From: an uncultured Lentisphaeria bacterium
Lineage (GTDB): Bacteria; Verrucomicrobiota; Lentisphaeria; Victivallales; UBA1829
DNA: 64,000 nt
Assembly (NCBI GenBank): GCA_949287225.1
Contig: CASEFP010000017.1
Coordinates: 1-64,000 of the forward strand
Direction: 5' to 3'
Positions within the stretch are counted from its first letter, which is position 1. Every line of letters starts with the position of its first letter. The translations under genes were made by a program, and so were the position numbers. The notes under the pieces were generated by a model that worked only from the letters and a program-made list of their open reading frames with translations, ran no database searches and was not told the origin of the DNA. Below are positions 12,844 through 24,827 of this stretch, piece after piece.

Positions 12844-14211
12844 TCAGTTTTTCTGCTTGTTCGATCCATCCAGAAAATCCCATTCCGGGATCAGCTCGCT
12901 GAGCCGGACAGGACTGCCCGTTGCAATGGAGCGGTTCCCGGCGATACCCGTCATGATGGAACGCACCCCGTCAACATAGCCCGCGCAAAGATGCCGCGGG
13001 TCGTCATCCGCGCCGCGGAACAGATGCCGGAACAGCAGCGGATCGCATCCCTCATGTCCGCCTTTTGCCTTTTCATACGTGATGATCCGCGGCCGTCCCC
13101 ACTGCGGCTGGTAGATAAGTTCGGGAATCAGCGATTCCCCGCGCTGGCTGATTTCCGATTCTGCACCGGGAAGATTGAAAGCCGCGTTGTCGATCTGGTC
13201 CGCCAGAAGGAAGGCGCGGTCCACGGCATGGACTTCCAGACGTCCTCTGGTTCCGGTGAAGCAGATACGGTAGCCTTCATAGGGAGAAAACGCATTCAGG
13301 GAATAGGTCATCAGCGCGCCGGAGTGATAACGCACGAGAAGCGCCATGTTGTCCTCGATGGAAATTCCCTGGCTGAACACGCTAAGATCACGGAAATAGC
13401 CGTCCTCCTCCTCGGGTTTCCCGAAATAGAGTCCGTTCAACGCGGTATCTTCGGGCGTGACGTGCAGCGCCCAGGGATCCTTTGCCGCGATCTTGTTGTT
13501 TTTGCAGCGGTGGTAGAACTGTTTCACGCCGCGCGCCTCGGCGTTTTCCCTCCCGTAGAAGGCCAGATCCCCCTGGGCATAGACGGTGTCCGGATAGGAT
13601 TCCAGCCACCAGTTCACCAGATCGAAGTGATGGCTGGCCTTGTGAACCAGAAGACCGCCGGAATTCTTCTTGTCCCTGTGCCATCTCCGGAAATAATCCG
13701 CCCCGTGGCTGGTGTCGAGGAGCCATTCAAAGTGAACGGTTCTGACCGTCCCGAGGATGCCGGACTGCAGAAGCTCCTTCACACGGGTGTTCCGCGGGAT
13801 ATAGCGGTAATTGAATGCAACGCGCAGTTCTTTCCCGGAGGAGCGGACCGCATTGAGAATCATCCGGCATTTTTCCGTGTCGATTGTCATGGGTTTTTCC
13901 GTAATGACGTCGAATCCGAGTTCCATTGCCCGGCAGATGTACTGGTGATGCGTCCGGTCCATGCTGACGACAAGGACGCAGTCAGGGCGGTGCGTCAGAA
14001 GCATCCGGTCGAATTCCGACGCATCGTAGGCGGGAAGCGCCTGCGCGTGATAGCGACAGACGATTTCGGAATTGTGATACTCCATTCTCGCATGGTTGGT
14101 GTCGCACAGCGCCAGCAGTTCGGCGGCGTCGGCATTTTCCGCGTATATCGCGTGAATAAATGACTGCGCGCGGCTGCCGCAGCCGACAATACAATAGGTT
14201 TTCCGTTTCAT
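12844..14211 (-). CDS. Gfo/Idh/MocA-family oxidoreductase
   Basis: 455 residues. Rossmann start YCIVGCGSRAQSF at residues 5-17, VVSMDRTHHQYICRA, the family motif DVITEKPMTIDTEKCR (near 95), then GGLLVHKASHHFDLVNWW, the second-domain His motif. It is expected to be a cytoplasmic NAD(P)-dependent sugar or sugar-acid dehydrogenase. The ATG at 14211 overlaps the stop of the upstream secreted enzyme as ATGA, with AGGAAAA upstream, so the two are translationally coupled. Its place in an operon with a DUF4091/GH123-like enzyme suggests it oxidises the sugar that enzyme releases (inference). Confidence 0.88.
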   Translation of the reverse strand: MKRKTYCIVGCGSRAQSFIHAIYAENADAAELLALCDTNHARMEYHNSEIVCRYHAQALPAYDASEFDRMLLTHRPDCVLVVSMDRTHHQYICRAMELGFDVITEKPMTIDTEKCRMILNAVRSSGKELRVAFNYRYIPRNTRVKELLQSGILGTVRTVHFEWLLDTSHGADYFRRWHRDKKNSGGLLVHKASHHFDLVNWWLESYPDTVYAQGDLAFYGRENAEARGVKQFYHRCKNNKIAAKDPWALHVTPEDTALNGLYFGKPEEEDGYFRDLSVFSQGISIEDNMALLVRYHSGALMTYSLNAFSPYEGYRICFTGTRGRLEVHAVDRAFLLADQIDNAAFNLPGAESEISQRGESLIPELIYQPQWGRPRIITYEKAKGGHEGCDPLLFRHLFRGADDDPRHLCAGYVDGVRSIMTGIAGNRSIATGSPVRLSELIPEWDFLDGSNKQKN

Positions 14212-16868
14212 TTTTCCTGTTTTCCTTTGCAAAAAACATCAATCACATCAACCGTTCCGGATTTCCGGAAGACGGACCTGCCGTTCTTTAAAATTTCGAT
14301 GCCGAGTGTATGCCTGCCCGGATTGCATTTCCCGAGACCCAGTCCCCCGGAAATGTATTGCGCGGGAGCCAGGCTGACGCGATCCAGAGTCCTGCCCTGC
14401 GCATCGGAAAGCGCAAGAACGATTTCATCACACTGTTCCCGCGGCCCGGCAAGTTCAAAATCCACGGAGAGAAATTGGGTCCGTTTCTCAATTTTTCCGG
14501 CATACCGCAGATTCAGCGGAGCGGGCGTGCGGAAAGCCAGAAGCCGCAGATTCCGGAAGCGGAAATGCAGATCGGCCCTGTCCGAATACTGATTTTCGCT
14601 GATCCCGATCTGAATGCGGACGGCCTCCCGGAGCCGCGCATCCTCCAGCGGCAGGACAAAGGTATGCCATGTCGCCGGCTGCAGAGAAGTGATTTCCCCG
14701 ATAGTCCGGATCGCCCCTTTTGCCACCGCCTGAATCCACATCGGCCAGGATTCGTTTGCCTCTCCGTTGCGATTGGAATCCACCTTGAGTTCGAATGCCA
14801 GATACGGATAGGCATTGAGATCAGTCTTTTGCGGGAAGTCGAAGATCATGCGCGGCCAGCCGCAGAGATATTTCGGGGGAGTTCCCGGTGTGGAAAATCC
14901 ATCCGCGCTGTGATCCACCTGAATACGCAGATGCGTCTCATTGCCCTCCTGCACAAGGGAAGCTTCTCTTTCATGGGCGCGCCAGCGGGTCAGCGGAAAC
15001 ACGGCAAGCGACGATTCATCAAAAGTCCGCTCGGGATTGCGTTTTCCCCGGGTATCGGCCAGAACCGAAGGCACTTCTGCATTCCCGGCATCCTCCGGAT
15101 AAGCGATCAGACGGAGGATGAGATCGGCGAATTCTGCCCGGCGTGCGTCGTATTCCTCATGCGGGAAGACGCTTCCCGCGGAATAATCCGCCCGGACGGG
15201 GATGTCGTCCCATGTTTTCTGTATCAGGGCGCGTGCTCTGCGGATCAGTGCACGGCATCCCGGAATAGCGTTTTTCTCCCGCCTTGCAACGGCACACTGC
15301 AGGGTGTAAAGATAGTTCAGATCATAAATACCCTCTCGGAAACACGCCCAGTAGAGCCCCGGCGCAACCGTCCCGTCCGGCAGCTGGAGATTTCCGCCGC
15401 GGCCCTGAAAATGCCCGTTGCTGTTCGGGAGTCGCCAGACCCACGGCATCAGCTGGTGATATCCGCTTTTCCAGAATCCGAACCCGTAGACCATTCTGCC
15501 GTTCCGGCACATGATTTCCGGATCACTGATCTGGTATGCCACATTGTTGGGATAGGCCCAGTATTCCTTTTTGTCGCCGGAGACCGCCTTTTCATACGGA
15601 TAACGGAAACTGCCGTCCGAGTAGATATCCACTTCTGCGTCCATCTCCTCCCGGACAAAAGGCGGTGCGGAGGTGAATACCGTGCGGCCTCCGAGTTCCC
15701 GGAAAAGGGCATACAGGCGCTTCAGCCAGAAGCGGTTTTCCGTCGCGGGTTCGTCAACAGGGTTGAATACAAACGGAGGATACTGTTTCCGGGCGGCCTC
15801 CTTCATAAAGGCGGCGATTTTCTCCTTCATCTCCCGGAAATACGACTCGGGAAGTTCGGTGATGCCCGGATAGTGCGGGAGGACCTTCTTCCCCGTGTGC
15901 TTTGCAAAGAAATGGTATTCTCCGGACCCTGAAAGCATGAGCGGCTGCCGGAGATCAAAACCCGCCTCCCGGAGTTCTCCGAGCATCTTGTCTATATTCA
16001 TGATGAAAAGTTTGTCATTGTCACTGTCATAGCGCAGCAGCATGCCGGGCGGCCGCGTGAATCCGAAATCCAGAAGCTGGGAATATTCCCGGAGCTGAAG
16101 GCTGTGCAGAAGCTCTTCGTTGTCTTTGTTCCGTTTGTAAAATATCGAATGCTGATCCCGGATGTCATAATAATAGGCGGTGTAATGCTTGTTCGGATCT
16201 TTTTCCAGTCTGATCGGCAGGACCTCAATCTGAAACGGCAGAAGCGCAGCCTTGTCAAAAGTGTCATGAAACACCAGGATCTCTCCATGAACGGTTCCCG
16301 GCTTCTGTTCTTCCGGAATCCGGAAACTCAGGACAAAGCGCTGGGATTCTCCTTTCGGCGCATCGCAGAGTGTCATCGGAATCATGTATTCAGGCATTCT
16401 CCGATACTGTTTTCCAGCATGGGAGTTGTATTTCGGATAGAGCTTCTTCCAGCAGCCGATCCGGGTGATTTCAGGTTGCACGGGAGAGTTCACCCGGACT
16501 TTCAGCTTTTTCAGATCGGCAAGCGGATAGACCGCGAAATTCAGCAATACGAACTGCCCGGGAGCCCCCCATGCGGAAAGCTTTCCGCACCGTTCAAAGG
16601 GTTTCGGACGGGTTTCCGCCCAGACCGGATTCGTCAGTGCGCGGGTAAAGAGGATCATCTGCGCCTCGCGCTCCGTTTTGAGCGGCTCCGGTTCCGGCGA
16701 ATTTTCCCGGTAAGGATTTTCGTGAAATCCGGGAGGCACCTTTTCCGGCTGTTCAAAGGGATAAATTTCCGGAACGGTGTCAACGGGTTTCGGACACCAG
16801 CGCGGCGCTGCGGAAAACAACGGAGCAGAGAGCACTCCCAGTAAAACGATGATACAGTATCTTGCCAT
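14208..16868 (-). CDS. Secreted DUF4091/GH123-like glycosidase
   Basis: 886 residues with a signal peptide (YCIIVLLGVLSAPLFSAA). Two N-terminal beta domains lead into a TIM-barrel catalytic region carrying FNPVDEPATENRF (about residue 370), a DEP motif like that of DUF4091/GH123 enzymes. The family's GLYWACFREGIYDLNYLY block (about residue 520) follows, then a C-terminal beta-sandwich (about 620-885). GH123 members act on beta-N-acetylgalactosaminides, but family membership alone does not fix the substrate here. It lies between a pseudopilin (27 bp upstream) and a Gfo/Idh oxidoreductase (ATGA overlap). A truncated relative of its C-terminal part is found at 26190-26711. Confidence 0.75.
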   Translation of the reverse strand: MARYCIIVLLGVLSAPLFSAAPRWCPKPVDTVPEIYPFEQPEKVPPGFHENPYRENSPEPEPLKTEREAQMILFTRALTNPVWAETRPKPFERCGKLSAWGAPGQFVLLNFAVYPLADLKKLKVRVNSPVQPEITRIGCWKKLYPKYNSHAGKQYRRMPEYMIPMTLCDAPKGESQRFVLSFRIPEEQKPGTVHGEILVFHDTFDKAALLPFQIEVLPIRLEKDPNKHYTAYYYDIRDQHSIFYKRNKDNEELLHSLQLREYSQLLDFGFTRPPGMLLRYDSDNDKLFIMNIDKMLGELREAGFDLRQPLMLSGSGEYHFFAKHTGKKVLPHYPGITELPESYFREMKEKIAAFMKEAARKQYPPFVFNPVDEPATENRFWLKRLYALFRELGGRTVFTSAPPFVREEMDAEVDIYSDGSFRYPYEKAVSGDKKEYWAYPNNVAYQISDPEIMCRNGRMVYGFGFWKSGYHQLMPWVWRLPNSNGHFQGRGGNLQLPDGTVAPGLYWACFREGIYDLNYLYTLQCAVARREKNAIPGCRALIRRARALIQKTWDDIPVRADYSAGSVFPHEEYDARRAEFADLILRLIAYPEDAGNAEVPSVLADTRGKRNPERTFDESSLAVFPLTRWRAHEREASLVQEGNETHLRIQVDHSADGFSTPGTPPKYLCGWPRMIFDFPQKTDLNAYPYLAFELKVDSNRNGEANESWPMWIQAVAKGAIRTIGEITSLQPATWHTFVLPLEDARLREAVRIQIGISENQYSDRADLHFRFRNLRLLAFRTPAPLNLRYAGKIEKRTQFLSVDFELAGPREQCDEIVLALSDAQGRTLDRVSLAPAQYISGGLGLGKCNPGRHTLGIEILKNGRSVFRKSGTVDVIDVFCKGKQEK

Positions 16869-16894: not shown

Positions 16895-17623
16895 TCAATA
16901 AAAATTCAGATCCAGATTTCCCGTCACAGACCAGAAGATGCAGAGCCAGGCGTCCGGATGATACCCCGGATAACCGCTTGTAACATGGGGAAACTGACTG
17001 CGGCGCAGGACGACGGCATGACTGTCGGCAAACGCGGTCACGATCCCGGAACCGTGGCGATAGGCGTACTGTTCCCCCGCGGAAGCCGACGGAATGAATT
17101 TATAGGAAAGACGCCCGCTTATGGTTGTTGGCGGAGCTTCGGCAAACAGCATGGTCCGTGTCGGGCGTTTGACCTGGCTGCTCTTGTAGGCGTAAACGCT
17201 TTTCCCGTCATAATCCCACGGACGGAAGAAATATTGATTGTAGCCGATCGACATGGTTCCGGTTCTGCTTTCGGAAGGGCATGCCAGCGGCGAACGGGTT
17301 CCATCCGGACGGATCTGCCCGATATACGGCACATCAATTTCCATTTTCAGATAATCCGAAATCAGCCGGTCGGTCCGTCCGCAGCTCAGAAGACGCATTT
17401 TATTCGGCGCGCTATCGGTTTCGCACGGATAGAAGTCCGCCCAGTCGCCGAGATAAAAGAGAACCGCCTTTCCGACCTGCTGAAAATGATTCAGGCAGGA
17501 AACGGATTTGGCTTTTTCACGCGCCGCGTTCAACGCCGGCAGAAGCATGGCCGCCAGAACGGCAATGATTGCAATCATAATTAAAAGTTCAATCAATGTA
17601 AAACGCTTCACATTTTTACTCAT
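16895..17623 (-). CDS. Pseudopilin-like protein (degenerate H-X9-DG)
   Basis: 242 residues with a short leader (MSKNVKR), then [17 protein letters not shown] with Glu+5 and [17 protein letters not shown]. Position -1 is Arg rather than Gly. The C-terminal signature is [12 protein letters not shown], that is H-X9 followed by Asp-Ser instead of Asp-Gly. ATG at 17623 has GGGAGG upstream; an in-frame ATG at 17653 lies within a putative operator arm and is unlikely. It is the first gene after a consensus promoter framed by a perfect 24-bp inverted repeat, and is followed by the DUF4091/GH123-like gene. Confidence 0.85.
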
Positions 17624-17644
17624 GCCTGTCCCTCCCGGATTCTG

Positions 17645-17789
17645 ATGCCGCATAATGAATCATTCATAACGCCTTTCTGAAAATATCCGATGTAAAATCC
17701 CGTTTTTATATTATATTCCAACAAATTGTCATTGTCAATATCCAAATATAATTTTTTCTCGACATTATGAATGATTCATTATGCGGCAT
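17645..17789. repeat. Perfect 24-bp inverted repeat flanking a promoter, candidate operator pair
   Basis: 17645-17668 and 17766-17789 are exact reverse complements over 24 bp, centre to centre 121 bp. Each arm contains the small palindrome AATGA-A-TCATT. One arm is upstream of the -35 box and the other downstream of the start site of the promoter between them. This fits two operators for the adjacent GntR regulator, possibly with DNA looping. Confidence 0.65.
17710..17738 (-). promoter_or_regulatory. Consensus promoter of the pseudopilin-DUF4091-Gfo operon
   Basis: On the minus strand TTGACA (17738-17733), a 17-bp spacer and TATAAT (17715-17710), an exact sigma-70 consensus. Such a strong promoter needs a repressor, consistent with the flanking inverted repeat. 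Confidence 0.75.
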
Positions 17790-17825: not shown

Positions 17826-18836
17826 TCAGGAAAGAACCGCCAGAGTATCGCCCTTGACCAGTTCCGGAGTGATGGAAATCCGGATTTCCTTCCTGCGCCC
17901 TTCCAGGATGTCAATCAGCCCCTTGCAGGCGGTATAGCCGAGCTCCTCGGGAAACTGGTTTACGGAAGTGATGGGACGCAGACGCTGATACTCCTCCATA
18001 AAGCCGAATCCGGTGACGGAACACGTTTCCGGAACGGCGATGCGCTGCTCCCCGAAATGAAGGAGCAGACGCATGGCGAGATTGTCCGACGCACACATGA
18101 TGACGCCGGGATCGGGAAAGAATTCCTGAATTTCCTTGCAGACAAGCGACGGATTGAAGGCCAGCGTGGAACCGACGGCAAAAATCTGCCTTTCCTTCAA
18201 AAGAATACCATGTTCCCTCAATTCGTCCCGAATCCCCTGAACAAAAGGATGGTTTTTCTCATGGACGATCAGCACTGGTTGGCGGTGCCCCCGCTGATAT
18301 ACAAGCCCCGTAAGCTCTCTGGCTCCGGCATACATGTCGGAATAAATAACATTACGCTGATCTTCCGGCGGGTTGTTTCCCAGATAGACAACCGGCAGAG
18401 GATATGTTTCCGGAACCGGATCCGCACAATGGGCAAGCAGGCCACTCACCCCCGAGGCACGCATCATTTCCAGCTGGGTTCGACTGTTTCGCCCTGATTC
18501 ATAATACTGGAGGGCATAACCGTTTTCCTCCGCCGCAGCTTGTGCACCGCGGACAATTCTGGCCCCGTAGGTCAGTCCGGAAATCAGAAGAGTCTGAATG
18601 GCAAGCGTTCCCCGGCAGACAGAGGGGGAATTCGTCAGAACACTGCCGGCAGCTCCTCCGCGCCGTTCGACAAGGCCCTGCTGGACAAAGCGGGCAACCG
18701 CTTTGTTGGCAGTGGTCTTATTGACTCCGCAGCGTTTGGCAAGTTCGTATTCGGAGGGAATTTTGTCGCCGGCCTGAAGATTATGCGTCCGGACATACTC
18801 CCTGATGTATCGGATTACCTGTTCTGTTTTTGTCAT
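17826..18836 (-). CDS. GntR-type regulator with LacI-like sensor domain
   Basis: 336 residues. An N-terminal GntR winged helix (KIPSEYELAKRCGVNKTTAN, about residues 22-41, then LVERRGG) is joined to a LacI-type periplasmic-binding sensor domain (RIVRGAQAAAEENGYAL, MCASDNLAMRL, VTGFGFMEEYQRL). ATG at 18836 follows a weak purine stretch; upstream frames lack a ribosome site. A candidate promoter has -35 TTGACA at 18904-18899. It sits directly upstream of, and is transcribed in the same direction as, the operon whose promoter carries the 24-bp inverted repeat, which is its likely target. Confidence 0.85.
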   Translation of the reverse strand: MTKTEQVIRYIREYVRTHNLQAGDKIPSEYELAKRCGVNKTTANKAVARFVQQGLVERRGGAAGSVLTNSPSVCRGTLAIQTLLISGLTYGARIVRGAQAAAEENGYALQYYESGRNSRTQLEMMRASGVSGLLAHCADPVPETYPLPVVYLGNNPPEDQRNVIYSDMYAGARELTGLVYQRGHRQPVLIVHEKNHPFVQGIRDELREHGILLKERQIFAVGSTLAFNPSLVCKEIQEFFPDPGVIMCASDNLAMRLLLHFGEQRIAVPETCSVTGFGFMEEYQRLRPITSVNQFPEELGYTACKGLIDILEGRRKEIRISITPELVKGDTLAVLS

Positions 18837-18904
18837 TCTGATGCCGCCTTTTCTAAAATTCCGCACCCGTCTTTTATTATTTGTATCCAGCATGAAAATG
18901 TCAA

Positions 18905-19550
18905 GGCTGATTGGAAAAGATTTTTTCATTTTTTCAAATTGCGGCAGCAACGAGTTTTGAAACAGGACGAAGCGGTCCTTTTTCAGAACTCGTTTTCATT
19001 GATGATCTCCGATGCAACAAAAGGTCGTTCGTTCCGAGAAAGCGAATTTCATAAAAGCTGAAAAACTCTCTGAACCGGAAAGACCATTGTTACAAATTGT
19101 GCGAAAATGGGGCCGGCCTCTTGGTTTTTCGAACATGTGCCCTCTGCAATGATGTTTTTATTTCATCCATTGACAAAGAAACGGCATCACACCAATACAG
19201 AAGGAGTCAATAATTTGAACCTGTCCTAGCCGCCGGGACGGTCATTTTTAGAAAATCAAGATTTTTTTCAGGGAGATATTCCTGGTTCCCCTTTGACGGA
19301 AATCTTTCAGGCAATTTTCGAAGAAAGCCGGACTTCTGACAACCTTTTTTGCAGGAAGATGTCCAGGGGAGAATATATTCCCACAGAAGATGGACCGGTT
19401 ATTATATATTGTATAAGTATATTATGATAAATATCTTAAAAGCAAGTTGGCTCATAAGAATGCGGAGAAAAAAACCTTTTGCAGTTTTTCCACCTTGAAA
19501 TGAAAAATGGAAAAGCTATTGTTAAAAAAGAATCTGTTCGGAGTGTAACA
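18905..19550. other. Intergenic region between two regulator genes
   Basis: About 650 bp between divergently placed GntR-type regulators. It is AT-rich towards 19400-19440 (TTATTATATATTGTATAAG), where the rightward promoter probably lies. No intact gene, RNA gene or clear repeat was found. Confidence 0.45.
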
Positions 19551-20621
19551 ATGCGCCAGGAAACATCGCGATCCATTTATCTGCAGTCTGTTTTGACCGA
19601 AAGGATTATTTTCGGCAAGTATCCCCTGGGCTCACGTCTGCCGTCTGCGCAAGAACTGATGAAGGAATTCAAAGTCAGCCGCTCCACATTGAAGCGGGGT
19701 CTGGATTATCTGGAGTCCATCCGTCTGATCTCCCGGAAAAACGGATGCAGCCCGACGGTAATTGAGTCTTCCCGGGCAATCCATCGCCGCAGCGAATCGC
19801 AGTATCGGATCGCCTTGATCCGGGATATGGTCCGGGACGGGCTGCGTTTCCCCTTTCATCGTGGGCCATGGACCTGGACGTTGCAGGAACTGCTGCAGCA
19901 GCACCTGCTGGAAAAGCATATTCCAACCGTCATCATCGGCAGCAGTGATATTGAGCGACATGCGGAGCTCCTGAAGAATCTTTCCGGATGCGTCTATCTC
20001 TGCCCGCATTATCTGGAACAAACACATCGGAAACTGGTCTCCCTGGGAATTCGTCATATCACCTTGACCGCTTACTGTGAGAATCCTCCGCCCGCCAACA
20101 TAGTCTGCTATGATTTTGATCATGCAAACGACCGCGCGGCATGTTACCTGCTGCTTCACGGCATGAAAACACTTGATATTATTGCCTCGCCGCAGGAAGA
20201 CGGACGCCTGAATTCCTTCTACCGGCTTCTTCACGAATGGAATTTTCCGGAAGAGGCAATCCACCGCATGGCTCTGGAGACGATTGAGGATCACCTGGAA
20301 ATTGAGGAACGCTATCGGAGCATTCCACCTGAGTGGCAGCTCCCCGCCGGGATCGTCTGCTACCGGGAGCGCCATGCGGTTCTTGTTTTTTCCCTTCTGC
20401 TCCGGCATGGCCTCCGTCCGAAACAGGATTTCCGGCTTTTTTCTCTCGGCAAGGATCTCATGCCGACGGATATGGCAGGAAGTCCGGCAATCAGCGGATA
20501 TTCCTCAAGTCTTCCGGAACTGGCAGATCATGCCATCTCCATGCTCTATGATTTGATTGAGAGCGGCTGCAATCAGCCCAATTATCGCTGCCCCATAGAT
20601 TTCCAGATCTGCGACACCTGA
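19551..20621 (+). CDS. GntR-type regulator with divergent sensor domain
   Basis: 356 residues. The GntR DNA-binding part spans about residues 5-70 (GSRLPSAQELMKEFKVSRST, then GLDYLESIRLISRKNG). A LacI-type sensor follows, with weaker conservation. ATG at 19551 is chosen because GGAG lies 8 nt upstream; an in-frame ATG at 19479 lacks a site. The 1119-residue secreted protein begins 19 bp after the stop, so regulator and target are co-transcribed, implying autoregulation. Confidence 0.82.
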   Translation: MRQETSRSIYLQSVLTERIIFGKYPLGSRLPSAQELMKEFKVSRSTLKRGLDYLESIRLISRKNGCSPTVIESSRAIHRRSESQYRIALIRDMVRDGLRFPFHRGPWTWTLQELLQQHLLEKHIPTVIIGSSDIERHAELLKNLSGCVYLCPHYLEQTHRKLVSLGIRHITLTAYCENPPPANIVCYDFDHANDRAACYLLLHGMKTLDIIASPQEDGRLNSFYRLLHEWNFPEEAIHRMALETIEDHLEIEERYRSIPPEWQLPAGIVCYRERHAVLVFSLLLRHGLRPKQDFRLFSLGKDLMPTDMAGSPAISGYSSSLPELADHAISMLYDLIESGCNQPNYRCPIDFQICDT

Positions 20622-20640: not shown

Positions 20641-23600
20641 ATGAAATTGATCAGACTGCTTCCGCTTTTTTTTGTTTCCCTGGGCGTCTTTGCCACGGAA
20701 TTCCGTGTTGAGGAACTGTCCGGCGGAAATTTCAGAATCCTTTACGGAAACGAAGTCGTTGTTGATTCTATTCTTACCTTTGTCACAAACAATCCGCCGG
20801 GGGAAAAACGGAAAAACACCCGGACAGCACTCCCCGACGGCGGTCATGCCTGGAATCTCTGGAGCGAGGAACCGCACAGCAGCTTCCGTACGGAGATTGC
20901 CGTGAACGGCAGCGGCAGCGAGGTAGAGATCACATTCATGACCGAGGCTCCCGCATATGCACCGGATGTCACCGCCGGCAAAACCATACAGCTGATTCTG
21001 CCATTTGAATCATGGAAAGGAAAAACCATTGAAGGTTATATCGGACGGGCTACGGCGGAAGTCCGGAAAAAAGGCGTTGTTGCGGACAATACCCCCGACG
21101 GAATGCTTCTCGGCGCAGACTGGCGCTTCCTCAGCGTCACGGATGGAAAAAATCCGGGATTCCTTTTTGACTTCAACCCCGTCGGCCCCGGGGATTTCAT
21201 CAGCATTTACAGGGAGGGCGCTCTGCGCGGACTCTGGAAGGTGCTGCGCAGAAAAAACCAGATTCAGATGATCGGCGGCAGCGTCCTTCTCCCCCACGGC
21301 GGATTCACGGGCGCGAAAATCCGCATCTGCCGCGGGGGGATGAAAGATTACGACCGGCTTCACGCAATGCGTAAATTCTTTTACACCCAGCATCTTGATC
21401 CGGAACTGCTTCTGAGTTTCGGAGCGGACCGCCGCGGAAAGGAGTACACTTCCGCGGATACCGCCGTATGGAAGAAAGGAAAACGGTACGGCTGGGTCTC
21501 AAAATCTCCCCTGAAACGGCGGAACAGCGGAAAGCCGGGCGCTCTTTACAGTGCCGTTTCCGGAGAGGACGGCGTGTTCCGGATCGAAGGACTGCGTCCC
21601 GGCTTCTGGTTCCTTACGCTTTCATCGGGGAACAGCACAGGGACGCCGAATCAGTTCTCCATATCATGCAACGGAAAAACAGCTGTTGAAAAAACAACCG
21701 TCGCTCCCGGAGAGCTCCTCGTCACGACTCTTCCGTTGCATATCGACTCCCGCGGATGCGCAGAGCTGCGCTTTGACGGATCGTTTCTGCTGTCCACCCT
21801 TGCCGCGCAGTTCCTGATGGCGGACGCGGAAGACTTCAGCATCCGCCGGGGCCCCTGGGCAAGTGACGGCTTCGAGCCGTCAGTGCTCTTCAGAAATGAA
21901 CACTACCGCCCCGCACCGGAACTGCGCGCGGTCCAGGAGAGAATCCCGATGCCGGAACAGGGCCGGGAGATGCGTGCTCCCGCCAAAGAGCTTCTTGATC
22001 CCCGTGCAACTCCTCCCGCGGATGCGCCGGGACTGCGTTACCGCTACAATGCCGTCATCGGCAATTGCCTGGGCAACAGCGCCACTCTTGCGGAATACAG
22101 GGACAAGGCTGCGCTGGAAAAATTTCTCGACGAACAGGAGAAAAATCATGTCAATGTCCTAATCGTGAGCGGTCTGCACTCGCGCCACACCTATTTCCGG
22201 CATCTGGAGCGGAGCCGGAATGCCATACGGGAAATCGCGGAACAGGCGCACAAACGGGGAATGAAGGTCATTGACCATCACGATGTGACCCTGCTGTGGA
22301 ATCTGGACGCAGGCTTCCGCCTCATGACCGAACAACCGGACCGGCTGACCCGCACTGTCCGGAACGGTCTTCCCGGATGCCAGTACTGCATTTTGAACCC
22401 CGCAGTAAACCGGGCATATACGGAATATCTTCTGGGACAGGTCCGCGCGGGAATCGACGGCTTCATGATTGATGAAGTCATGTTCTACCCCGAGTGCTGC
22501 GGCTGCTCCTTTTGCAGGAAACAGTTCCATGCCGATACCGGCTGGGAGCTGCCATTGAATGAACTGGATCCCTTTTTCACCTCAAAAACATCCCCGCTCC
22601 GGCAGTACTGGCAGAAATGGCGCATGCAGCAGATCGGAAACTGGTGGGTGCGCCTCCGGGGAAAAATCAATGAAATCAATCCGGATGTCACGCTTTTGAA
22701 TTACACGACACATTATGGCTTCACAAGCCGCTACGCCACCTGCGGCATGGGCGCCGACCTGATTCAGACAGCGCGCGGGGCGGACTTTTTCGGAACGGAA
22801 ATCATGAGCCGCAACATCCTGCGGAGCGCCCGCGCCGTCGCACCATTCCGGAAGGCGCAGAATCTGCTGAAAACAGCATTCGGCACTCCCATCTGGGGTC
22901 TGATCACCACACAGATCAACTGGGATGGCGCGTATTTCGGCTGGGCGCTCAACAACATGCATGCGCAAAGCCCATGGATCAATCAGCCCGTGAACAATAC
23001 AGGGCGCCGGGCCTTTCTCTCGTTTGCGGACCGCAACATGGATTTTCACAAGGCCCGTCCAATCGCAGAAGTCGCGCTGCTCTTCTCCTCTTCGAGCAGG
23101 GACTGGGCTCCCGCCGCCGGATTCCCGGGGGAACTCTTCGGGACGGCGCAGACTCTGGAAACCATGCATCTGCCCTATGAGATCATCGGAGAACAGAGTA
23201 TGAATGCCGATGTCCTGAAGAAATACAAAGTTCTGATTGCCGCAGGCACCCCCTGCCTCTCCGATTCGAATGTGAGGGCGATCCGGGCATTTGCGGCGAA
23301 TGGAGGAAAAGTCTTCCTGACAGGAAACTCCGGGCTTTACGATGAGAACGGAAAGGCGCGTTCCGCATGGCCGTTTGCCGATGTGTTTCCGGTTTCCCCG
23401 GAATGGCGCGCCACGCTGAAGAATGTGATTCCATGCAGTAAACACGGGGAACACCGCCTTGAGAAAATCATGGTTCAGAAACTGCCGGACAATTCCACGG
23501 AAATCCGGCGCAGTGTGTTCGGAAAAGGCGCGTTCTTCTATTCGCCTGTTTTTCTTGCATCGAAGCTCTATGCCGAGGAGGGAACGCCGGGACGGGTCTG

Positions 23601-24000
23601 GACGTTTGAACGGAATTCTTCTCTTGATGCGTGTTACAAGGAGATGCTGCGCGAAATCTGCCGCGGAGCCGAAGTCTGGAAGATTGATGCTCCTGAAATG
23701 GTCCTGACGACTTTGTACAAGCAGGAGGGAGTCTTCTGGATCCACTTTCTCAACGCGACGGGTTCCCGGAACGAAAAGGGAAAACCGATGCCGCAGGCGC
23801 TTCCCGAGCCCGCGTTTCCGCCTCTGGACAAAGACATTGTCATTCAGATTTTCTTCCCGGAAATGAAAAAGGCGCTCGCGGTTTCTCCGGATTTCCCGGG
23901 AGAAAAGCTTCTTTCTTTCCGGAAGGGGAAAAGCGGCATCTGCTCGGTTACGCTTCCCAAAGCGCTTCTGGATGTATACACCATCGTCAAACTGCACTGA
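20641..24000 (+). CDS. Large secreted putative glycosidase (GHL6/beta-galactosidase-like)
   Basis: 1119 residues with a signal peptide (MKLIRLLPLFFVSLGVFA). Beta-rich N-terminal domains reach about residue 420, including a segment FRIEGLRPGFWFLTL. A TIM-barrel region follows from about 500 (HVNVLIVSGLHSR), containing HKRGMKVIDHHDVTLLWN, FMIDEVMFYPECCGC (near 610) and further cysteines (CSFCRKQF). Then comes a Rossmann-like domain resembling the beta-galactosidase trimerisation fold (VLIAAGTPCLSDSNVRAIR and GGKVFLTGNSGLY, about 863-900). This order matches hypothetical glycosyl hydrolase 6-type proteins. AAGGAG precedes the ATG. It is the middle gene of a regulator-enzyme-pseudopilin unit; the substrate is unknown. 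Confidence 0.7.
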   Translation: MKLIRLLPLFFVSLGVFATEFRVEELSGGNFRILYGNEVVVDSILTFVTNNPPGEKRKNTRTALPDGGHAWNLWSEEPHSSFRTEIAVNGSGSEVEITFMTEAPAYAPDVTAGKTIQLILPFESWKGKTIEGYIGRATAEVRKKGVVADNTPDGMLLGADWRFLSVTDGKNPGFLFDFNPVGPGDFISIYREGALRGLWKVLRRKNQIQMIGGSVLLPHGGFTGAKIRICRGGMKDYDRLHAMRKFFYTQHLDPELLLSFGADRRGKEYTSADTAVWKKGKRYGWVSKSPLKRRNSGKPGALYSAVSGEDGVFRIEGLRPGFWFLTLSSGNSTGTPNQFSISCNGKTAVEKTTVAPGELLVTTLPLHIDSRGCAELRFDGSFLLSTLAAQFLMADAEDFSIRRGPWASDGFEPSVLFRNEHYRPAPELRAVQERIPMPEQGREMRAPAKELLDPRATPPADAPGLRYRYNAVIGNCLGNSATLAEYRDKAALEKFLDEQEKNHVNVLIVSGLHSRHTYFRHLERSRNAIREIAEQAHKRGMKVIDHHDVTLLWNLDAGFRLMTEQPDRLTRTVRNGLPGCQYCILNPAVNRAYTEYLLGQVRAGIDGFMIDEVMFYPECCGCSFCRKQFHADTGWELPLNELDPFFTSKTSPLRQYWQKWRMQQIGNWWVRLRGKINEINPDVTLLNYTTHYGFTSRYATCGMGADLIQTARGADFFGTEIMSRNILRSARAVAPFRKAQNLLKTAFGTPIWGLITTQINWDGAYFGWALNNMHAQSPWINQPVNNTGRRAFLSFADRNMDFHKARPIAEVALLFSSSSRDWAPAAGFPGELFGTAQTLETMHLPYEIIGEQSMNADVLKKYKVLIAAGTPCLSDSNVRAIRAFAANGGKVFLTGNSGLYDENGKARSAWPFADVFPVSPEWRATLKNVIPCSKHGEHRLEKIMVQKLPDNSTEIRRSVFGKGAFFYSPVFLASKLYAEEGTPGRVWTFERNSSLDACYKEMLREICRGAEVWKIDAPEMVLTTLYKQEGVFWIHFLNATGSRNEKGKPMPQALPEPAFPPLDKDIVIQIFFPEMKKALAVSPDFPGEKLLSFRKGKSGICSVTLPKALLDVYTIVKLH

Positions 24001-24041: not shown

Positions 24042-24827
24042 ATGAAAAGAAGTCTGATTTGCGCACAGAAGGAAGAAAAGAAACGCCGGAGTAATTTACA
24101 TCCGACACAATCACCTGATCATCAAAAGGATATGAATTTTTTCACTCTAATAGAGCTCCTGGTCGTGATTGCGATCATCGCGATTCTGGCAGCCATGCTC
24201 ATGCCCGCGCTGGGCAAGGCACGGGAACGAGCCCGTTCCGTCAGCTGCCTCAACAATCTGAAACAGCAGGGGATCGCGATTTTCTCATATGCATCGGACA
24301 ACAAGGATTATCTGATCTCCTCAAATGTCTACTACAATCAGCAGGCGGACAACACATTGAACAATACCTTCAACAGTTCCAGTGCACGTTCCGGACGGCT
24401 TGTTCTCCTGTTCGACGGATACTTCGGGAAACAGGCGATCCCGAAGAACGGAACCGAGCTGGAAAAACTGCGGAGCAAAATGTATCGCTGTCCGGCGGAC
24501 AAGAACACGTTCAGTTCCGAAAGAGACAGCTATTATCTCCTTTATTACACGGCGGACTGGGTGCCTTACAGCTATCGTTTCGGGAAGCGGGACTATGCCA
24601 GATATCGCCTCAGTGACGTCGGCCATCTCGGCGGACTCATTTCCGCTGATGCCGGCATCTATTCTGTGGACCTGACAAACAACTACATCAATCACAGCAA
24701 TTTCACAAATGCGCTCTGTCTTGGAGGCAATGCCCTGAGCCGCCCCACGAGACTGGCCTATCCCCAGGTTTCCATCATCAATGCTCTGCGCGTGGAAAAC
24801 GGATACGGGAAACTCGACAACCGCTGA
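24042..24827 (+). CDS. Pseudopilin-like protein (degenerate H-X9-DG)
   Basis: 261 residues. A 33-residue, lysine-rich leader precedes [17 protein letters not shown] with Glu+5, then [17 protein letters not shown]. Residue -1 is Phe. At the C-terminus the usual H-X9-DG is [12 protein letters not shown], so the Asp is lost. ATG at 24042 has AGGAGG upstream. It is last in its unit, behind the 1119-residue glycosidase, unlike most other units here where the pseudopilin precedes the enzyme. Confidence 0.83.

Follow-up and report, generated by a model that had tools for sequence, protein, structure and literature searches.

Two perfect inverted arms that surround a full-consensus promoter in the genome of an uncultured Lentisphaeria bacterium are very probably paired operators for the adjacent GntR/LacI-hybrid regulator, which would repress a pseudopilin/oxidoreductase operon by looping the DNA between them. 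The sequences support three elements of this reading: the predicted operator motif of the regulator's clade lies in the arms, candidate sites of this type occur in pairs, and the distances within the pairs appear to be quantized by the DNA helix. We infer from these elements which protein binds the arms, that it represses rather than activates, that a loop forms, and that an effector controls it. The features of the locus, in coordinates of the window (the whole 64,000-nucleotide stretch analyzed), are as follows.

12844..14232, minus strand: Gfo/Idh/MocA oxidoreductase of 462 aa, third gene of the apparent operon, overlapping the end of the second gene.
14208..16868, minus strand: 886-aa protein, second gene of the apparent operon, an ORF with no match in the family search.
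16895..17623, minus strand: pseudopilin-like protein with a prepilin N terminus, first gene of the apparent operon; GspG/prepilin models match below cut-off.
17645..17669, minus strand: downstream, promoter-proximal arm, candidate operator O1, with the 17-bp TTATGAATGATTCATTA at 17653-17669 (centre 17661, about +43).
17710..17738, minus strand: consensus sigma-70-type promoter, TTGACA-N17-TATAAT, between the candidate operators.
17765..17789, plus strand: upstream arm, candidate operator O2, with the 17-bp TTATGAATGATTCATTA at 17765-17781 (centre 17773, about -70).
17829..18836, minus strand: regulator gene, 336 aa, GntR-type winged helix-turn-helix plus LacI/PurR-type sensor (AraR architecture, from domain matches).
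18890..18906, minus strand: CCTTGACATTTTCATGC, a TGA-N5-TCA site that may be a weak operator and overlaps the -35 element of the promoter of the regulator gene.

The inverted repeat is perfect, as the initial annotation had it, with arms of 25 bp rather than the 24 bp given there; the arms are 100% complementary and lie either side of a 95-bp, AT-rich gap. Their centres are 120 bp apart (121 bp in that annotation), and the dyad centres within them are 112 bp apart. The promoter reported inside the arms was recovered on the minus strand, from 17738 to 17710, matching the consensus at 12/12 positions and reading left, toward the pseudopilin gene, whose start at 17623 is preceded by GGGAGGG. Its predicted transcription start site, near 17703 on the minus strand, would place the dyad centres at about -70 and +43. 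A scan of the 64-kb window for inverted repeats with arms of at least 15 bp within 300 bp returned this pair and no other, and a search of 397 kb of the genome revealed no perfect inverted repeat of at least 17 bp within 400 bp. The genome-wide search for further copies of the arm, proposed as a check on a repeat family, found none in the 4.27-Mb draft genome; the arm is a single locus. Perfect terminal-type repeats around a 95-bp AT-rich segment might also mark the remnant of a MITE, a small transposable element, with 25-bp terminal inverted repeats, but we give this origin next to no credence: the element would be present in a single copy, direct reading of the flanks revealed no evident target-site duplication, and the segment holds the operon promoter together with the regulator's operator motif.

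The gene upstream of the arms was correctly described as GntR type. Its product carries a GntR winged helix-turn-helix at residues 4-62 (PF00392, E = 9.6e-13, above cut-off) and, at the C terminus, a LacI-type sensor at residues 180-331 (PF13377, E = 4.1e-18), which resembles LacI/PurR structures in sequence comparison. It appears to have its own promoter, TTGACA-17-AATAAT at 18904-18876 on the minus strand; the possible operator that overlaps this promoter scores under the threshold of the position weight matrix (PWM) described below. On the other side of the arms, the pseudopilin, 886-aa protein, and Gfo/Idh genes form one apparent operon, in which the 886-aa product is a probable secreted carbohydrate-related protein.

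GntR-type regulators are numerous in this organism, with 112 GntR-type DNA-binding domains at E ≤ 1e-3 in the 4.27-Mb genome (105 over cut-off), at least 6 of them inside the window, a striking regulator expansion. Only 2 of the 112 belong to the class studied here, defined by the recognition-helix motif N-K-x-T-A-N-K and the close form N/H-K-M-T-A-N. A second GntR/LacI-hybrid regulator (19479-20621, plus strand) heads a cluster, with genes at 20641-24000 and 24042-24827 on the plus strand, that encodes a GHL10-like 1,119-aa protein and another pseudopilin (DUF1559), and the combination of regulator, pseudopilin, and carbohydrate gene thus occurs twice within 12 kb. Elsewhere in the window, a 34-bp AT-rich direct repeat with 2 mismatches (360-393 and 464-497, 104 bp apart) is possibly another paired regulatory site.

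Each arm contains an odd-centred dyad, ATGAAT-S-ATTCAT, with the core TGA-N5-TCA and 7/8 pairs over 17 bp. The initial annotation had singled out the palindrome AATGAATCATT; the relevant palindrome is instead the 13-bp ATGAATSATTCAT, at 17655-17667 and 17767-17779. With 0 mismatches allowed, ATGAATSATTCAT has no genome copy beyond the two arms, and exact TGAATSATTCA has three further genome copies, about chance level. The identity between the arms runs 8 bp past the 17-bp dyad on the ATGCCGCA side, asymmetrically and in mirror orientation. Such an extension is absent from the other homologue pairs described below and is not required for operator function; the simplest idea is that one operator was recently copied in inverted orientation, or converted, to give the putative second one. 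A 13-mer in the operon leader, GCGGCATCAGAAT (17639-17651, minus strand), covers the outer portion of O1 and recurs at 18835-18847 on the minus strand, just before the regulator start codon. It was rejected as a genome-wide leader element because its three other copies lie in apparent coding stretches.

A promoter enclosed by perfect inverted repeats is the hallmark of an inverton, and the possibility that the arms are recombination sites, across which the 95-bp promoter segment flips and subjects the pseudopilin operon to phase variation, deserves respect for that reason. The 25-bp arms fit the published definition of 10- to 40-nt inverted repeats (PMC11892184), invertons are numerous in related Verrucomicrobiota (PMC13343947), the arm identity reaches past the operator, and seven tyrosine recombinases in the genome score over the family cut-off. 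All seven, however, are on other contigs, the window's contig carries no recombinase, and a search of the genome for serine recombinases found none. Neither a sister site with the same arm in the genome nor a further promoter bracketed by inverted repeats in the 397 kb sampled was detected. Moreover, the core of the arm is the dyad found before the regulator's homologues, where it often occurs in imperfect pairs unsuited to recombination. We consider an invertible promoter improbable here, and much less likely than repression by looping.

Homologues of the regulator were gathered from GTDB genomes and order-level relatives; a scan with the single regulator as query gave no relatives, and an alignment-based scan recovered them. 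In 41 nonduplicate 200-bp upstream regions, with the window excluded, we tested the dyads that each of the 64 trinucleotides can form at 13 spacings. TGA-N5-TCA ranked first, occurring in 17 regions against 2.73 expected from dinucleotide shuffles, with a z score of 8.9 against a maximum of 8.2 in 500 shuffles. The exact core TGAATSATTCA occurred three times in the same regions (L145, L160, and L167) against 0.014 expected. Most homologues of this set share the recognition-helix motif N-K-x-T-A-N-K. The enrichment depends on the larger sample, since in an earlier test on 16 collapsed homologue groups TGA-N5-TCA was not ranked. L016, the closest match in another genome, lacks a TGA-N5-TCA site. 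That the dyad most enriched before homologous regulators is also the core of the arms supports the earlier proposal that the arms are operators, and we regard this core as the predicted operator motif of the clade, with the 336-aa regulator as its presumptive cognate protein.

Two further observations concern upstream sites in relatives. Close to the start of the regulator, five loci whose proteins have an N-K-M-T-x-N-K helix (L298, L299, L339, L353, and L354) carry TTGACTSATACACTT, a variant site that is probably a subclass-specific operator. At L034, a perfect 66-bp tandem duplication (2533-2664) containing the palindrome TAAAAAACTTTTTTA precedes a homologous regulator, with a spacing of 66 bp.

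Paired sites were sought with a symmetric PWM derived from 12 sites, at distances of 25 to 220 bp and with no spacing preference. Since most second sites are degenerate, a strict search of the homologues for pairs of near-identical palindromes found almost none, and the PWM was required. A site pair was detected in 20 of 74 nonredundant homologous loci, and no pair was detectable in the other 54. With leave-one-out PWMs 19 paired loci were retained, whereas column-permuted PWMs yielded 0.32 on average and never more than 9. No pairs were found before 100 GntR genes from the window's genome that belong to other classes. A harder null, in which the strongest site was kept and the flanks were shuffled, gave second sites in 5.4 of 34 loci on average and in 14 at most, so a minority of the homologue pairs may be accidental.

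The spacings in the 20 loci were 42, 85, 89 (two loci), 90 (four), 91 (two), 92, 99, 101 (three), 102 (two), and 111 bp (three), and thus fall mainly into clusters at 89 to 92 bp (nine loci), 99 to 102 bp (six), and 111 bp (three); the 112 bp of the window fits this ladder. The best period was 10.6 to 10.7 bp (R = 0.77 to 0.78), a value reached in 0 of 5,000 uniform simulations. Loci seen only after the motif had been fixed, with spacings of 89, 90, 91, 92, 111, 111, and 111 bp, gave a P value of 0.023 alone. Because protein-bridged loops need whole turns and independent sites do not, the phasing points to looping, and the geometry of looping repression suggested earlier for the arms thereby gains support from predicted site pairs in homologues.

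The most serious rival is a roadblock without a loop, in which the same regulator binds two operators, O1 at +43 obstructs the polymerase, and O2 raises the local repressor concentration or acts as an independent site. O1 does lie within the transcribed leader, single sites are also present in homologues, and the identity of the cognate operator would be the same as in the looping model. Yet such an arrangement fails to account for the phased spacing, since independent sites have no reason to be separated by whole turns (89 to 92, 99 to 102, and 111 to 112 bp, unmatched in the 5,000 uniform simulations), and in the gal system a roadblock by GalR at O_I is overridden by transcription in vitro (PMC4693257). 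We judge the roadblock unlikely. The homologue pairs bear as well on a proposal at the RNA level, that read-through from the regulator gene pairs the arms into a long hairpin acting as a terminator or RNase III site. In minus-strand RNA the arms can pair perfectly into a long stem (-54.2 kcal/mol, z = -8.1), and no intrinsic terminator was found after the regulator on that strand. The same fold, however, is expected of any 25-bp inverted repeat, and a transcript from the main promoter, which sits between the arms, has one arm only. The homologue pairs are imperfect and often self-palindromic, so conservation tracks the dyad and not arm-arm pairing, which leaves the hairpin very improbable as an explanation of the repeat.

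The position of the paired sites relative to promoters varies among homologues. In many, the promoter of the regulator gene itself has a -35 hexamer that includes the TTGA of the proximal site, and about 90 to 111 bp upstream of that site is the distal one, an arrangement suggestive of looped autoregulation. Since the proximal operator often overlaps a -35 element, the promoter-flanking geometry of the window is not universal. It recurs, with the promoter between the sites, at L017 (-66/+45) and L139 (-42/+59), compared with -70/+43 in the window; L017, the second-best homologue match at 38% identity, has its sites 111 bp apart. L146 matches the window's order of regulator, then site-promoter-site, then next gene: a TTGACA-N17-TATTAT promoter is flanked by a pair 97 bp apart (-78/+19), and an additional pair precedes the regulator itself. 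Two related species (L157/L028 and L159) have near-identical TTGACCCACTCAAGA sites exactly 90 to 91 bp apart, the second of which doubles as a -35 element. A 25-bp, GC-rich inverted repeat with 1 mismatch and a 273-bp gap was also seen at L118 (18490-18514 and 18788-18812).

In the looping model that we favor, a regulator dimer would occupy each 17-bp dyad, with its TGA-N5-TCA core, when the effector, probably a sugar, is absent; one protein is thus presumed to bind both dyads. Contact between the two bound dimers would close a loop of about 112 bp enclosing the promoter at 17738-17710, which would switch off the operon for the pseudopilin, the 886-aa protein, and the Gfo/Idh oxidoreductase. 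Binding of the effector would release the loop. Fucose and other deoxy-sugars are the first candidate effectors, since ORF translations show probable GH29-type genes next to the homologues L016 and L017.

Several known systems offer parallels. AraR of Bacillus subtilis binds cooperatively to two in-phase boxes and forms a small DNA loop (PMC4218819, PMC4494728); like the 336-aa regulator, it joins an N-terminal GntR winged helix to a C-terminal GalR/LacI-type sensor, and its boxes are palindromic. The regulator shares the architecture of AraR but is not AraR. The two are weakly similar in overall sequence (E = 1.7e-6 to the AraR sensor structure 3tb6), and the operators differ. AraR recognizes an even palindrome of 16 bp, AT(T/A)TGTACGTACAA(A/T)T, a consensus that the odd-centred arm core ATGAATSATTCAT does not match; the window site is 17 bp and odd, with TGA-N5-TCA. 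AraR has a Firmicutes host, and the spacings in the Lentisphaeria clade are about 90, 101, and 112 bp. In the E. coli gal system, GalR represses through a loop between two 16-bp operators, one at -60.5 and the other at +53.5, a separation of 113 bp or about 11 turns (PMC4693257). The gal and window loci thus share operators of 16 to 17 bp on either side of a promoter and nearly the same separation, 113 bp against 112 bp. The 336-aa regulator also resembles GalR in that a LacI-type tetramerization tail is not evident, the protein ending soon after the sensor. GalR binds DNA through a LacI-type helix-turn-helix, in contrast to the GntR winged helix here; gal is also transcribed from two promoters, and in vitro its loop forms only with HU and supercoiling. 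At lac, the strength of loop repression by LacI follows the helical phasing of the operators, with a fitted in vivo repeat of 11.1 to 11.6 bp (PMC1762422), compared with the best period of 10.6 to 10.7 bp in the homologous loci. LacI, by contrast, is a tetramer.

No described operator for the GntR/LacI-hybrid group was found in the literature searched (open-licence papers). We lean, somewhat more than evenly, toward a broader proposal for the Lentisphaeria clade of these regulators: that its members form short loops through a TGA-N5-TCA operator, which was not found described in that literature, that the spacing evolves by whole turns (90, 101, and 112 bp), and that the 25-bp arms of the window are a freshly copied operator. 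An odd single inverted repeat thereby leads to a rule that can be tested, namely that spacings are whole numbers of helical turns, and to a predicted operator motif and looping geometry for an entire clade of regulators in bacteria known mostly from metagenomes. Few comparative signatures of DNA looping that can be had without experiment are cleaner than whole-turn spacing. If the proposal is true, the perfect arms of the window would be a snapshot of how such loops arise, and comparative genomics alone would record the in vivo loop geometry of uncultured bacteria.
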